Assembly: GCA_003164815.1 (NCBI GenBank)
Contig: PLUF01000051.1
Span: 18,533-82,532, forward strand
Reading direction: 5' to 3'
Origin: Candidatus Gagatemarchaeum stordalenia
Lineage (GTDB): Archaea > Thermoproteota > Nitrososphaeria > Nitrososphaerales > Gagatemarchaeaceae
DNA length: 64,000 nucleotides
The notes below the pieces were generated by a model. The model made no database searches, had not been told where the DNA came from, and worked only from the letters and a program-made list of their open reading frames with translations. A program made the position numbers and the translations under genes. Below, piece by piece: positions 50,819-55,399 of the stretch. Position 1 is the first letter of the stretch. The number at the start of each line of letters is the position of its first letter.

Positions 50819-51364
50819 TTGGACCGCGAAGGCTCAGGGACGTACGTCCCCTCTGACGACACCGCGCTAATGGTCCGGGCCCTCTCCTCGGTCGAGGGAG
50901 GCAGCTGCCTCGAGATAGGCTTCGGGAGCGGGGCCGTGCTGCACGCGCTCCGTCCAAGGTTCTCCCTGGTCGTCGGTACCGACATAACCAGCGTGGGTCA
51001 GGCCAGGGTCGCCAAGGGCTCGTCGGAGGCCGTCCTGGCGGACAGGGCCACCTGTTTCAGAGACGGAACCTTCGATGTGGTCGCGTTCAACCCCCCGTAT
51101 CTACCGTCCGGGCTGGTCGAGGACCGGGTGGTGGACGGCGGCCGGGGAGGGGTCGAGGTGCCGATGAGATTCCTCGAGGACGCGCTCAGGGTCGTGAAGG
51201 CCGCAGGCAGGATCTACGTCCTGCTCTCGGACCAAGGAGACCTAGACGGCTTCGTCTCTCACTGTGTCGGGTCGGGGCTCTCGATCCGCGAGGCGGCGAG
51301 GGCCAAGCTCTTCTTCGAGTCGCTATTGGTCTACGAGATTACCAGAGAAAAGACTTCTAGTTGA
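50819..51364 (+). CDS. HemK/PrmC-family glutamine methyltransferase
   Basis: SAM-dependent methyltransferase, 181 residues, like archaeal/eukaryal HemK2 (Mtq2), which methylates the GGQ glutamine of release factor aRF1. SAM site SCLEIGFGSGAVLHALRPRF, catalytic VAFNPPYLPSG (NPPY), and the short N-terminus (TYVPSDDTALMV) match the one-domain form. TTG start at 50819. It converges on the zinc-ribbon gene with an eight-base overlap. Confidence 0.88.
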   Translation: MDREGSGTYVPSDDTALMVRALSSVEGGSCLEIGFGSGAVLHALRPRFSLVVGTDITSVGQARVAKGSSEAVLADRATCFRDGTFDVVAFNPPYLPSGLVEDRVVDGGRGGVEVPMRFLEDALRVVKAAGRIYVLLSDQGDLDGFVSHCVGSGLSIREAARAKLFFESLLVYEITREKTSS

Positions 51365-52406
51365 GGCCCATCACGTTCACCGGGGTGCCCGTATTCGCGT
51401 CCAGTATCAGAATGATGTCCTGTCCCTTGTGCGTGTACTTGGCGAACCAGATGGGCGCGTGGAGGAGCTCGCCGTCCCCGACGTCCATCTCGGTGTTCAT
51501 CTGCTGAATCATGTGGTACTGTGAGTGGGCCTTGTCGGACTGGACCTGCGAGACGAACGTCCGTGCCTGATTCTTCGCGTCCTCCTCTCCGATGTCGCCG
51601 TTGAGCACCGGTATCCCTTTCGGGACCTTCGTCAGGTCGAAGAGCGCCCTCTCGGCGAGGTTGAAGGTGTAGTTCTTCGGCTGGTACTCGCTCAGCGCCT
51701 TCAGGGCAACGACCGGAAAGTTGTAGTTGTTGTCCAGCTCCGCGGTCTTGCGATTCCCGCCGCCACCGCCCATCATTCCGAATCCGCCCAACATCATCCC
51801 GAGGCGAGACGCGCCGCCGAGGCCCAGGCCGAATGGCATCCCGAACCGGACAGCCGGGGCGACGGGGAACGACCTCCGGAAGCCTCCGGCCATGACGCCG
51901 AAGAGAGCCGCGGTCGTCGCGATGTTGGCGGTTTCCATCACCATGCTGGTGGCCACGATCGAGGTCCTGGCCGAGACCGGGACGATCCAGTACGGGACGA
52001 GCGACAGGTTCAGGTCCACGAGAGTGGAACTCTCCTGCAGGTGCCGGTGCAGGAGTCCCTGGTCCATGAGCTGGCGGATGCGATCGGTCATCTGGTCCTT
52101 GTCCGTGAACTTGGCGAGCAGCATCGTCTGCTTCTGGATGCTCGACCATCCGTCGTTGCCCAGGGTTATCCCGCTCCCGCAGTACTCGCAGGTGATGACC
52201 ATCTCTCCGAACTTCGGTGAGATGGGAGCCCCGCAGTCGGGGCACTTCATGGAGGTAGCACCCATCGGCGCGATCACGGGAGCCCTTGGCGCCGCCTGAG
52301 CTTGGGGTTGTGCGGCCGATCCCGTGGGGTTGACGCTAGCGCCGCACTTTATGCAGTAGACCGCGTCGTCGGGGAGCTGGGTGCCGCACCTCGGGCAGTA
52401 TACCAT
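51357..52406 (-). CDS. Double zinc-ribbon protein with Gly-rich hydrophobic region
   Basis: A 349-residue protein. Two N-terminal zinc ribbons (YCPRCGTQLPDDAVYCIKCG, KCPDCGAPISPKFGEMVITC then EYCG) precede a beta-rich domain (STLVDLNLSLVPYWIVPVSA), a glycine/methionine-rich stretch (GMPFGLGLGGASRLGMMLGG) that could touch the membrane, and a second beta domain ending LILDANTGTPVNVMG. No known enzyme motif. Its ribbons resemble those of the adjacent SPFH protein, 15 bases upstream, so they may be partners. Confidence 0.75.
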   Translation of the reverse strand: MVYCPRCGTQLPDDAVYCIKCGASVNPTGSAAQPQAQAAPRAPVIAPMGATSMKCPDCGAPISPKFGEMVITCEYCGSGITLGNDGWSSIQKQTMLLAKFTDKDQMTDRIRQLMDQGLLHRHLQESSTLVDLNLSLVPYWIVPVSARTSIVATSMVMETANIATTAALFGVMAGGFRRSFPVAPAVRFGMPFGLGLGGASRLGMMLGGFGMMGGGGGNRKTAELDNNYNFPVVALKALSEYQPKNYTFNLAERALFDLTKVPKGIPVLNGDIGEEDAKNQARTFVSQVQSDKAHSQYHMIQQMNTEMDVGDGELLHAPIWFAKYTHKGQDIILILDANTGTPVNVMGLN

Positions 52407-52421
52407 CGACTATGACCGGCT

Positions 52422-53624
52422 CTACATCGGCTTTCCGCACTGTGGGCAGAACTTCGGGCTGCCCGAGACGCTGGCCCCGCAACTGGGACAGGTCTTGGTC
52501 TGGACTGGCGCGCTCGCCTGGGGGGCCTGCGCGACTGCGGCGCCACAGTTCGGGCAGAACTTGGCGCCCACCTGCAGAGGAGAGCCGCACTGGGCACAGG
52601 TCTGTGCCTTGGCCTGCGCTGGGGGCTGTTGCTGCTGCAGCGAGGTCCCGCAGTTCGGACAGAAGGTGCTCGAGGCCGCAATGAGAGAACCGCAGTTCGG
52701 GCAGGACCTGTTGGGCTGCATCCCTCCCGCCATCCCCTGTGCCATCTGGCCGCCGAAGGCGTAGCCCATCCCGGCGCCGGCACCGATGCCGACACCGAGG
52801 CCCGCCCCGATGCCCGCTGTCCCGCTCTGGTTGTTTGCGGCATCGACCATCGCCTGTCCAGCCTGGTACTGCATGTAGTTGACGCCGAGGACCTGGATCT
52901 GCGACCTGGTGTCGATTGCCTTCTGCACCTCGTCGGGGAGGCTGATCGTGAGGCCCGAGATCTTGTTGATCTCAACGCCATACTGCCCGAAGTTGTCCGG
53001 GGCTAGCGCGAGCACCGCCTGTTCGATCGTTGTGAGGTTCGCAGCCAGGTCGGTGACCTTCAGCCCCTGGGCCTTCATCTTGCCCATCGCGTTGTAGACC
53101 AGGATGACCATCTGCTCCTTCAACCGTGACTCCACGTCGTCGGAAGACTCTGCCGCGAAGGTGCCCACGAACTGGTTGATGAAGTTCTCAGGGGACGACA
53201 CCTTCCACCTGTACTCGCCGAAGACCCTCAGGTTGACAAGCCCGAAGGTGGGGTCGGTGAACTGGTAGGGCTGGGTGCTCCCGAACTTCCCGTCGAGGTA
53301 CCTTTTCTGGAGGTAGTAGACCTCGGCCTGCTGCTGGACGCCCGTGAAGAACTTGAGGAGGTTCCCCACGATGGGGGCGTTGAAGTCCGTGAGGGCGTAC
53401 CTGTTCGGCTGGTCGAAGTAGGTGAGGACCTTTCCGTCCCTGTAGAAGACCGCGATCTCGTCCTCCCTGACCACGATGTTGTCGTTGAGCCTGATGTTTC
53501 GGGGGACCTTCCACATCACGTTGTTCTGCTTGTCCTGGTCCTCCCAGTTGATCGTTATCGACCCGAGGACGCTCCCGCCCGTAGGGGGGATGTCCGTCGT
53601 CTTCTTCGAGAATAGGCCGGTCAT
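52422..53624 (-). CDS. SPFH-domain protein with three C-terminal zinc ribbons
   Basis: A 400-residue member of the SPFH 'virion core protein'/YdjI-like group. SPFH domain: WKVPRNIRLNDNIVVREDEI, AVFYRDGKVLTYFDQPNRYA, LRVFGEYRWKVSSPENFINQ and YGVEINKISGLTISLPDEVQ. A Gly-rich hinge (GLGVGIGAGAGMGYAFGGQM) leads to three zinc ribbons of the form C-P-x-C-G...F-C-P-x-C-G. Such proteins scaffold membranes under stress in bacteria; the archaeal role is inferred. Four-base overlap with the coiled-coil gene upstream. Confidence 0.83.
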   Translation of the reverse strand: MTGLFSKKTTDIPPTGGSVLGSITINWEDQDKQNNVMWKVPRNIRLNDNIVVREDEIAVFYRDGKVLTYFDQPNRYALTDFNAPIVGNLLKFFTGVQQQAEVYYLQKRYLDGKFGSTQPYQFTDPTFGLVNLRVFGEYRWKVSSPENFINQFVGTFAAESSDDVESRLKEQMVILVYNAMGKMKAQGLKVTDLAANLTTIEQAVLALAPDNFGQYGVEINKISGLTISLPDEVQKAIDTRSQIQVLGVNYMQYQAGQAMVDAANNQSGTAGIGAGLGVGIGAGAGMGYAFGGQMAQGMAGGMQPNRSCPNCGSLIAASSTFCPNCGTSLQQQQPPAQAKAQTCAQCGSPLQVGAKFCPNCGAAVAQAPQASAPVQTKTCPSCGASVSGSPKFCPQCGKPM

Positions 53625-54187
53625 GCTTTCACTTCACTGCTGGGCTGGACTGATATATTCTCTATCGTTTCCATCCGAATCACCCACTTCTGCTTGAAGT
53701 CGGTGATGGCAGACCCTACGAGGGACAGGGAGGTCTGGATGGAGTTGGGCGCTGTGGTGTCGTACACGAGGCTGGGCGATGTCGTGAGGGACTGGAGTTG
53801 GAACGCCGAGTTGACGAACCCGTAGTCGTACTCATACAGCTTGTTCAGCTTGTCCTGGTTGATCGAGATGGTGGCGACCCAGCCCGAATATCCCTGCGCG
53901 GCGTGCCTGACCTCGCCGCCGATCTGCTGGACCTGAGAGATTAGCGATCCCACTGATGTCAGGTTCGTGTAATCGCCGGCTGTGGCCATCTGCTTGCGCA
54001 ATGCTTCGAGATTGCCCTTCGACTGGTCAAGCTTGTCGGCCACCTGATTGCGCAGGAGGTTATCGGCGACCCGAAGGTCCTCGAGTGTCCTGTATCCCCT
54101 GAGACCCGGAACGAGCAGCTCAAGCTTCTTCTGAAAACCCCTATTTTCATCGACCTGCTGACGGATATCCGGATTGTCTTGTGACAT
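53621..54187 (-). CDS. Coiled-coil protein linked to the SPFH gene, unknown function
   Basis: A helical protein of about 188 residues (MSQDNPDIRQQVDENRGFQK, LRNQVADKLDQSKGNLEALR, LISQVQQIGGEVRHAAQGYS) with a conserved-looking YSGWVATISINQDKLNKLYE YDYG core. No membrane helix. ATG 54187 is preferred to an upstream TTG at 54196. A TATA-like TTTTATATGAG lies about 45 bases upstream and would drive the three-gene unit 53.6-51.4 kb. Confidence 0.65.
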   Translation of the reverse strand: MSQDNPDIRQQVDENRGFQKKLELLVPGLRGYRTLEDLRVADNLLRNQVADKLDQSKGNLEALRKQMATAGDYTNLTSVGSLISQVQQIGGEVRHAAQGYSGWVATISINQDKLNKLYEYDYGFVNSAFQLQSLTTSPSLVYDTTAPNSIQTSLSLVGSAITDFKQKWVIRMETIENISVQPSSEVKA

Positions 54188-54274
54188 TATTTCCAATTAC
54201 CCTAGATGAGAAATTCAGCCGTGGTTCTCATATAAAACTGTTGAACGGAGGACGGTTCCGGAGGCCCGGACGGA

Positions 54275-55399
54275 CTAGGAATGTCTGGAAATCCGGCGCT
54301 GAGTCGGGACCGTCGATGCATCACCTTCCAGCCAGGCCCTCGCATTTGCCTGGGCGACGTCATCGTTCATCGGCATAGGCGGGTGCTTCATGAGCCACGC
54401 GCTGGGCGCGAGCAGGGGTCCGCCTATCTTTCTGTCGAGCGCGACCTTGCAGTATCTGATTGCGTCGACGACCACCCCGGCAGAGTTGGCCTTGTCATCG
54501 ACCTCGAGCCTGACCTCCATGTTGAACGGCACGCCGGGGAACATCTTCCCCTCTACCCTGATGAAAGCGAGCTTGGTGTTCCCGAGGAACGGTATGAAGT
54601 CGCTGGGACCGACGTAAATCCTGTCGTCGGGGAGCCGCTCCCGGAGCACGTCCTGCACCGCCTCGGTCTTGGATATCTTCTTGGATTCCAGCCTTGACGC
54701 CTCCTTCATGTTGAGGAAGTCGGTGTTACCTCCCACGTTGATCTGGTAGGTCTTGGTGATCTCCACACCCCTGTCCGCACACAGCTGGGCGAGCGTGCGG
54801 TGGACGATCGTGGCGCCGACCACGCCCTTCACGTCGTCGCCGACTATCGGGAGGTTTCTCTCGGTGAAACGGTCTGCCCATTCCCTCCGGGATGCGATGA
54901 AGACGGGCATGCAGTTGACCATCCCGACTCCCGCTTCGAGGGCGACGTCCGCCCAGAATTCGGTCGCCTTCTGGCTGCCGACCGGCAGGTAGTTCACCAG
55001 CACCTCAGTTTTGGTATCCTTGAGTTGGTCGAGGATTGCGCCCCGCAGCTTCGCTGCCGACTTGCCGTCTTTCAGAGGCTTGACCTTGTTGTCGACGAAA
55101 ATCCCGACGCCGTCGAGAGCTGGCGACTCCATGACCACTGCTTCGGTGCCTGGGATGGAATCGACCCAGTCTACCACGTTGGGAGGCTGGTAGATAGCCA
55201 TGGAGAGGGGCTTGCCGATCTTGTTCGCCCCGACGTCGAACGCGCTCACAAACTCGAGGTCCTCTATGCCGTACTTGCCTATCTTGTCGTTACCGTACTT
55301 CGCCGCCTCCCTGTCTCCCGACTTTCGAAGATACACACCCTGGATTATCCCTGAGGCACAGTTACCCACCCCTACGACACCGACTTTTACACCGGACAT
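54275..55399 (-). CDS. ino1: myo-Inositol-1-phosphate synthase
   Basis: NAD-dependent enzyme turning glucose-6-phosphate into inositol-1-phosphate, for archaeal phosphoinositol lipids. NAD site VGVVGVGNCASGIIQGVYL, then EVLVNYLPVGSQKATEFWAD, ADRFTERNLPIVGDDVKGVV, YQINVGGNTDFLNMKEASRL and PFNMEVRLEVDDKANSAGVV. 374 residues fits the short archaeal/actinobacterial type. ATG at 55399. The divergent PadR regulator shares the upstream region and may control it. Confidence 0.95.
   Translation of the reverse strand: MSGVKVGVVGVGNCASGIIQGVYLRKSGDREAAKYGNDKIGKYGIEDLEFVSAFDVGANKIGKPLSMAIYQPPNVVDWVDSIPGTEAVVMESPALDGVGIFVDNKVKPLKDGKSAAKLRGAILDQLKDTKTEVLVNYLPVGSQKATEFWADVALEAGVGMVNCMPVFIASRREWADRFTERNLPIVGDDVKGVVGATIVHRTLAQLCADRGVEITKTYQINVGGNTDFLNMKEASRLESKKISKTEAVQDVLRERLPDDRIYVGPSDFIPFLGNTKLAFIRVEGKMFPGVPFNMEVRLEVDDKANSAGVVVDAIRYCKVALDRKIGGPLLAPSAWLMKHPPMPMNDDVAQANARAWLEGDASTVPTQRRISRHS

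Follow-up and report, generated by a model that had tools for sequence, protein, structure and literature searches.

Three genes on the minus strand

The window analysed here is a stretch of 64,000 nucleotides from Candidatus Gagatemarchaeum stordalenia (contig PLUF01000051.1 of assembly GCA_003164815.1), whose positions 51357-54187 carry a compact set of three genes, read along the minus strand in the order CC (protein P0003), SPFH (P0002) and ZR (P0001). An earlier note, made from the letters of the sequence, had described tight packing of three genes within these limits, and this description proved correct: CC overlaps the SPFH gene by four bases (53621-53624), and a spacer of 15 bases (52407-52421) separates SPFH from ZR. 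Because of the overlap, CC and SPFH are probably co-transcribed and translationally coupled; together with the co-occurrence and the gene order in other genomes, described below, it makes it likely that CC and the SPFH protein form one working unit, with ZR as an accessory. The set has the following features:

53621-54187, minus strand: CC, the first gene, with an ATG start; helical protein of 188 aa
54050-54109, minus strand: N-terminal motif of CC (P27-R46), consensus PGYRGYKxKExRRExDxLxR in a 59-member alignment
52422-53624, minus strand: SPFH/Band_7_1 protein of the YdjI type, 400 aa (PF13421, 5.3e-34)
52893-53501, minus strand: SPFH domain (residues 42-244)
52425-52712, minus strand: three C-terminal zinc ribbons of the SPFH protein (residues about 305-400)
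51357-52406, minus strand: ZR, a double zinc-ribbon protein with a beta-rich domain (tentatively PepSY-like), 349 aa
52335-52400, minus strand: zinc ribbon 1 of ZR (residues 3-24)
52179-52244, minus strand: zinc ribbon 2 of ZR (residues 55-76), with C55, C58, C73 and C76 invariant in 44 aligned members
51762-51944, minus strand: Gly-rich hydrophobic insertion in the ZR domain (residues about 155-215)
54230-54237, minus strand: TATA-like box TTTTATAT, separated by 42 bases from the CC start codon

The SPFH protein is a member of the Band_7_1 family (PF13421; 118.1 bits, cut-off 24), and the Pfam scan bore out the three zinc ribbons that the earlier note had assigned to it, as well as the two of ZR. 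Its ribbons are preceded by a Gly-rich hydrophobic linker. Of 167 SPFH relatives, among which some are repeats, 142 have a C-terminal ribbon; the linker was rejected as a general feature of these proteins, with at least 9 Gly per 30 residues in 40 of 161 relatives only. The best 19-residue Kyte-Doolittle means are 0.53 for CC, 1.28 for SPFH and 1.30 for ZR, and by this hydropathy analysis the SPFH protein has no clear transmembrane segment. A phmmer search of the PDB with P0002 returned no match at 0.01.

CC gave no significant Pfam match. Residues Y32, R39, R46, G99, D121 and R171 are invariant in the 59 aligned members, 51 of which match the NCBIfam family LIMLP_15305 (NF047596; E<=0.01, best 3.6e-18), a Leptospira-named family without a stated function. 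Residues 17-171 of P0003 align to positions 20-169 of this model (E 3.5e-9) with 36.8 bits, far under the equivalog cut-off of 210; judged by these sequence scores, CC is a distant homolog of the LIMLP_15305 family and not an equivalog member of it. In the one paper found by its locus tag, LIMLP_15305 appears solely in a table of non-coding RNA positions. Of 14 control genomes, only that of Bacteroides ihuae gave a match to the model, and this stayed below the cut-off. The controls without a match include Sulfolobus acidocaldarius, in which PF13421 does match; CC is therefore not detected there by the LIMLP_15305 model. CC-like proteins seem to exist in bacteria as well, and the LIMLP_15305 model seems to detect the archaeal ones weakly.

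The AlphaFold model of CC (mean pLDDT 86) is a compact four-helix bundle with main helices at residues 35-69, 76-94, 111-136 and 149-177; showing a bundle and not an extended coiled coil, this model corrects the "coiled-coil" protein of the earlier note. The modelled bundle may differ from the long open helical hairpin of the ESCRT-III/PspA superfamily; ESCRT-III is not among the listed PDB matches, although such an absence is no proof. At the sequence level CC was rejected as a PspA or ESCRT-III protein, with neither PspA_IM30 nor Snf7 among the 23 families matched by the 59 members (E<=0.01). Nor could it be assigned to a known fold: the best Foldseek hit had E 0.11 (talin R10), and the best VIA match had Z 11.8 (IncA mutant, rmsd 3.9, 147 aligned), followed by V-ATPase c-type subunits and HIP1R. 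The VIA matches may reflect just the common arrangement of helical bundles. The best hit of a PDB profile search, nucleoporin NSP1 (E 1.5e-4), covers a short stretch of coiled coil and was taken as chance, and tblastn found no match for CC in plasmids. As to the start of the gene, TTG is the start codon in 18 of 19 printed relatives (L192-L213; L, G, c and f numbers are our handles for loci, genomes, neighbour clusters and families) where the window has ATG, the one with ATG being L192; the CC of L190 and L198 align from residue 1, and of these two the L190 gene (genome G152) has ATG as its start codon (L225).

CC and SPFH across the phylum

The sample comprised 151 genomes of the phylum, the window's own included, and among them genomes labelled as Bathyarchaeia, Nezhaarchaeota and Pyrobaculum. 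Many look like metagenome-assembled genomes, in which unlinked copies could be mis-binned; the contamination of the window's own genome is 5.22%. The search with P0003 (E<=0.01) detected CC in 79 of the 151. PF13421 matched at E<=0.001 in 115 genomes and strongly, i.e. with E 8.6e-9 or better (a threshold chosen after the list was seen), in 78; in some genomes (e.g. G007, G077 and G105) the strong match is a short piece, truncated by a contig end or a frame. Matches from E 1e-7 down cover mostly the C-terminal part of the model, and the weaker ones were taken as other SPFH paralogs, which they probably are.

With these thresholds, both genes are present in 78 genomes and both are missing from 72; CC stands alone in one (G041) and strong Band_7_1 in none (Fisher p about 5e-43, with phylogeny ignored). 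The earlier note had named a lack of co-occurrence in related genomes as the outcome that would speak against its proposal; what was found is SPFH in 78 of the 79 CC-positive and in 0 of the 72 CC-negative genomes. Eleven families hold both CC-positive and CC-negative genomes, and inside them CC and SPFH covary except in G041. Distances between CC proteins correlate with those between SPFH proteins (r 0.85 over 74 rows, the largest value in 500 shuffles being 0.09).

The order of the two genes recurs as well. In 60 of the 69 loci from other genomes of the phylum sample, the SPFH gene comes after CC on the same strand at a distance of up to 200 nt (median gap 5 nt). The same order and distance are seen in 25 of 28 near-relative loci (a 29th had no hit) and in 70 of the genome_contigs loci; the latter set consists of the best 80 of 287 and partly repeats the genomes of the 69-locus set. 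The median gap is 4-5 nt overall. Recurrence in so many genomes argues that the order is not due to chance. The 69 loci were fetched from as many of the 78 other CC-positive genomes (left out were G026, G034, G041, G058, G081, G086, G087, G093 and G099, of which G041 was read later), and the profiles for the locus scans were built from loci that were themselves scanned. In complete genomes of Pyrobaculum (loci L169 and L175), CC and SPFH lie 1.3 and 0.8 kb apart, respectively. A small gene with several predicted transmembrane (TM) segments adjoins the pair in 38 of the 69 loci, according to a simple hydropathy rule.

Conservation across Thaumarchaeota, which the earlier note had proposed to check, was not found; the 79 CC-positive genomes are instead spread over the phylum. 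Matches to P0002 at E<=1e-20 occur in 6 of 7 other genomes of the same genus and in 20 of 29 others of the same family, and in 3 of 24 genomes of the order outside the window's family, many of the near-kin genomes searched being incomplete; among the 21 listed genomes of the order besides the window's own, CC was found in G089 only (52 further genomes without a CC match stand outside that list). Given the low counts outside the family, the presence in Thaumarchaeota is patchy. In the trees of CC and of SPFH, both built quickly and with many unresolved forks and long branches, the proteins of G014, a genome from another family (f5), are among the closest to the window's, and the G014 ZR is 60% identical to the window's, while other f5 ZR proteins reach 25-26%. 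These similarities suggest that the G014 set was transferred as a block, or that its contig was mis-binned.

The third gene and its surroundings

The trio that the earlier note had regarded as one set survives in its CC-SPFH core, to which ZR is not obligatory. A search model of the ZR domain that leaves out the ribbons finds matches in 51 of the 151 genomes, comprising 49 of the 79 CC-positive and 2 of the 72 CC-negative ones (G017 and G056). Among 29 fetched loci of relatives, all three genes lie on one strand in 19 and ZR lies on the opposite strand in one (L218); several of the remaining loci are cut by contig ends. G152, G172 and G178 have CC-SPFH without an adjacent ZR, and each has ZR on another contig; in G152, a sister genome, the syntenic locus retains the methyltransferase-like neighbour and lacks ZR. 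Since ZR is unlinked in some genomes, it appears to belong with the system without being locked to the locus.

The ZR model has a mean pLDDT of 80.6, with the Gly-rich residues 168-213 below 50. The best structural matches of its beta-rich domain are YpeB (5boi, Z 6.0, rmsd 2.6, 67 aligned) and YpmB (9a5z_A, Z 5.9, rmsd 2.2, 62 aligned), scores that the tool classes as common, on the basis of which the modelled domain may tentatively be called PepSY-like; Foldseek gave E 1.9 at best. The Gly-rich hydrophobic region pointed out by the earlier note is real and occurs also in ZR relatives from the window's family, and with the mean given above it stays below the usual transmembrane score. In other lineages ZR carries hydrophobic C-terminal segments (78 of 149 proteins, a set containing repeats, score at least 1.6 over 19 residues), in place of which the ZR of the window's family has the Gly-rich insertion.

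Several ZR variants were observed. The window's own genome encodes a second ZR on another contig (L235:3430-4542, G000:C88), which is 61% identical and has the Gly-rich insertion too; neither CC nor SPFH was seen among the ORFs (open reading frames) listed around it. L228:3993-6098 is a ZR frame of ~700 aa with ~330 extra residues between two ZR-like parts. ZR proteins of family f5 exhibit an N-terminal arrestin-like domain in L102:4412-5911 (Arrestin_N, 2.8e-5), L103:9574-11034 (Arrestin_C, 5.5e-5) and L097:6593-8053 (Arrestin_N, 0.011), all under the Pfam cut-offs; the f5 ZR of L106 shows no such domain, but L106 begins close to a contig end and may be truncated.

The TATA-like box ahead of CC suggests that CC is the first gene of its own unit. 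Such boxes are found upstream of CC also in 19 printed relatives, the weakest in L208 (by eye, without a chance control). A scan for bacterial-type (sigma-70) promoters yielded 0 promoter-like sites, a terminator scan one terminator-like site, within the gene upstream and below chance level, and no tRNA was found in the window. The gene immediately upstream of CC on the same strand (54275-55399, minus) presumably encodes an inositol-1-phosphate-synthase-like protein; it was rejected as a partner, being near CC in one locus only (L192, a close relative), with many of the loci searched carrying at most 1.5 kb of flank. On the other side, a methyltransferase-like ORF (50819-51364, plus), which we take to be HemK-like, overlaps the end of ZR by 8 bases with its 3' end. 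Recurrent neighbours in other genomes are the clusters c17 (4 loci) and c22 (3 loci), with examples in L067 and at L046:3315-4592; from the look of the translations, we take c17 to be a TldD/PmbA-like gene, and c22 gives the impression of an ATPase-like gene within or beside the cassette. L225:2812-6492 is an ORF of 1226 aa that looks, in translation, like an MCM-like helicase with an apparent intein-type insertion. A defence system was considered and found no support, as the PADLOC models gave weak hits only: P0001 had three, the best being Cas12f (6.1e-5) over the ribbon, P0002 had one (0.55) and P0003 had none. As to carriage by viruses, 78 pattern matches in viral_contigs contained 0 relatives detectable by tblastn.

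Possible function and relation to known systems

No PspA match over the cut-off was found in any of the 151 phylum genomes (the best of 20 weaker matches reached 26.6 bits vs 33.9), nor did PspA_IM30 match in the window's genome at E<=0.01; the same PspA search was positive in 9 of the 14 control genomes. PF13421 also matches in the B. subtilis control, to a protein that we take to be the membrane-stress protein YdjI, which agrees with the kinship between SPFH-ribbon proteins and a bacterial membrane-stress protein put forward in the earlier note. As described in PMC8581546, YdjI is needed in B. subtilis, together with the membrane proteins YdjG and YdjH, for the recruitment of PspA to the membrane, and YdjG is described as two ribbons followed by a YpeB-related domain and a TM segment (PMC11237479). 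Because PspA was searched for and none was found above the cut-off, the cassette is not filed as a Psp system; it is filed as a PspA-less variant of the YdjI-type SPFH module.

As to function, we favour, at about even chances, a PspA-less relative of the pspA-ydjGHI module, in which an SPFH scaffold would organise or protect damaged or stressed membrane. By analogy with the biology of other SPFH proteins, P0002 would oligomerise as a scaffold on the cytosolic face of the cell membrane; CC, predicted to be a soluble four-helix bundle, would be its dedicated partner, docking via the conserved N-terminal motif and filling the place held in Bacillus by PspA, and ZR would serve as an accessory adaptor carrying zinc ribbons. 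In other lineages, the hydrophobic C-terminal segments of ZR, or the adjoining small multi-span protein, could supply an anchor of the YdjG/YdjH type. While the anatomy of the set and the linkage of its genes are established, we infer complex formation, docking site, membrane side and function, and the membrane-remodelling or stress role that the earlier note had proposed for the trio is likewise drawn from relatives. More doubtful is the bolder proposal that CC is an unrecognised family that replaces PspA/ESCRT-III non-homologously and assembles on an ancient SPFH platform at the damaged membrane.

Several observations weigh against the PspA-less module. The contig that bears CC in G041 is 46 kb long; the 14 kb that were read contain no SPFH, and the PF13421 match of this genome is weak and located elsewhere. 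Nine of the 69 loci do not have CC and SPFH side by side: in 8 of them the fetched stretch includes the two genes, which in some cases lie on opposite strands, and L065 (G012) has no SPFH. Family f13 has the two genes apart (L084; G012), and in G012 they are on different contigs, with a different ORF following CC. An assembly break was rejected as the cause: the contig edge coincides with the downstream and not with the upstream end of SPFH, and CC is followed by another ORF. The correlation of CC and SPFH distances partly reflects shared descent, the PepSY-like assignment of ZR has Z about 6, below the safe level of the tool, and 20 of the 151 genomes do have PspA-model matches below the cut-off. 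Moreover, a sequence relation between CC and PspA could not be detected, and CC has no telling structural match, so that "in the place of PspA" is a statement about position only. The Lactococcus lactis control matches PF13421 but neither the PspA nor the LIMLP_15305 model, from which it follows that a YdjI-type SPFH can exist without either, and none of the six bacterial plasmid SPFH loci examined, out of 21 records, contains CC.

Among other explanations, quality control of membrane proteins, with an SPFH cage that gates a protease (as HflKC does for FtsH) and with CC and ZR as adaptors of substrate or protease, seems unlikely to us. Zinc ribbons are common adaptors, CC in its modelled form resembles a generic helical docking module, and the neighbour cluster c17 may be of the TldD/PmbA kind; yet no protease of the Lon or FtsH type could be made out by eye, without a family-library scan, among the printed neighbour clusters, and the window's SPFH type has no clear transmembrane segment, although SPFH proteins of other subfamilies are described as interacting with the FtsH protease (PMC2636767). 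We consider it improbable that the cassette picks membrane cargo as a sorting or vesicle machinery tied to archaeal ESCRT-like systems: an SPFH/zinc-ribbon protein is reported from archaeal Meth_adaptin loci (PMC11188069) and some f5 ZR proteins have the arrestin-like domain, but this domain was seen in f5 only, and there not in the possibly truncated L106, and 0 of the 59 CC members match Snf7 or PspA. Or perhaps the ribbons, carried by two of the three proteins, bind nucleic acid or a transcription factor and are released by a membrane scaffold under stress? The DNA binding suggested for the YdjG ribbon (PMC9239133) would fit such a sensor or regulatory complex, which we nevertheless judge to have a small chance, as no regulator was recognised by eye among the unscanned neighbours of the gene set. 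In addition, such short C4 ribbons often have a structural role. An ordinary operon of three genes without a common function, to which the dispensability of ZR at the locus and the non-conserved inositol-phosphate-synthase-like neighbour might point, is hardly credible, being already contradicted by the joint presence and absence of CC and SPFH over the 151 genomes and inside the 11 families.

If the PspA-less module is the right reading, the CC-SPFH pair is a candidate membrane scaffold or repair system of its own in a phylum without clear PspA. Psp domains are reported to be absent from more than half of 915 archaeal genomes (PMC9239133), which raises the question of how membranes are protected in such cells. 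The listings and passages searched, which cover open-licence papers, contain no description of CC and SPFH as a pair; the tight linkage of SPFH with an uncharacterised partner, and the occurrence of both in complete Pyrobaculum genomes, provide a concrete gene pair for study.

Comparison with other systems places the cassette as follows. The LIMLP_15305 family of Leptospira shares the matches of 51 of the 59 CC members and differs in the equivalog cut-off, which P0003 does not reach. Archaeal Meth_adaptin ESCRT-like loci, as described in PMC11188069, also have an SPFH protein with a coiled coil and a zinc ribbon in a membrane-trafficking context, but their definition centres on a Vps4-clade ATPase together with adaptin-appendage-like proteins. 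On a Vibrio coralliilyticus plasmid (L222) an SPFH gene is followed directly by a match to the ZR-domain model (4e-16), so the SPFH-ZR association exists also in a bacterium; CC was not found there, and the ZR model had no match in the other five bacterial plasmid SPFH loci. The closest known system is pspA-ydjGHI of Bacillus, a likeness that comes from the described domain make-up of YdjG and YdjI and not from direct sequence comparison. Both are compact operons that combine a Band-7 SPFH protein with C-terminal ribbons and a second, double-ribbon protein. They differ in that YdjG has a TM segment, whereas the window's ZR has no clear one, and in that the archaeal cassette, in a sampled phylum without PspA over the cut-off, has CC in that position.

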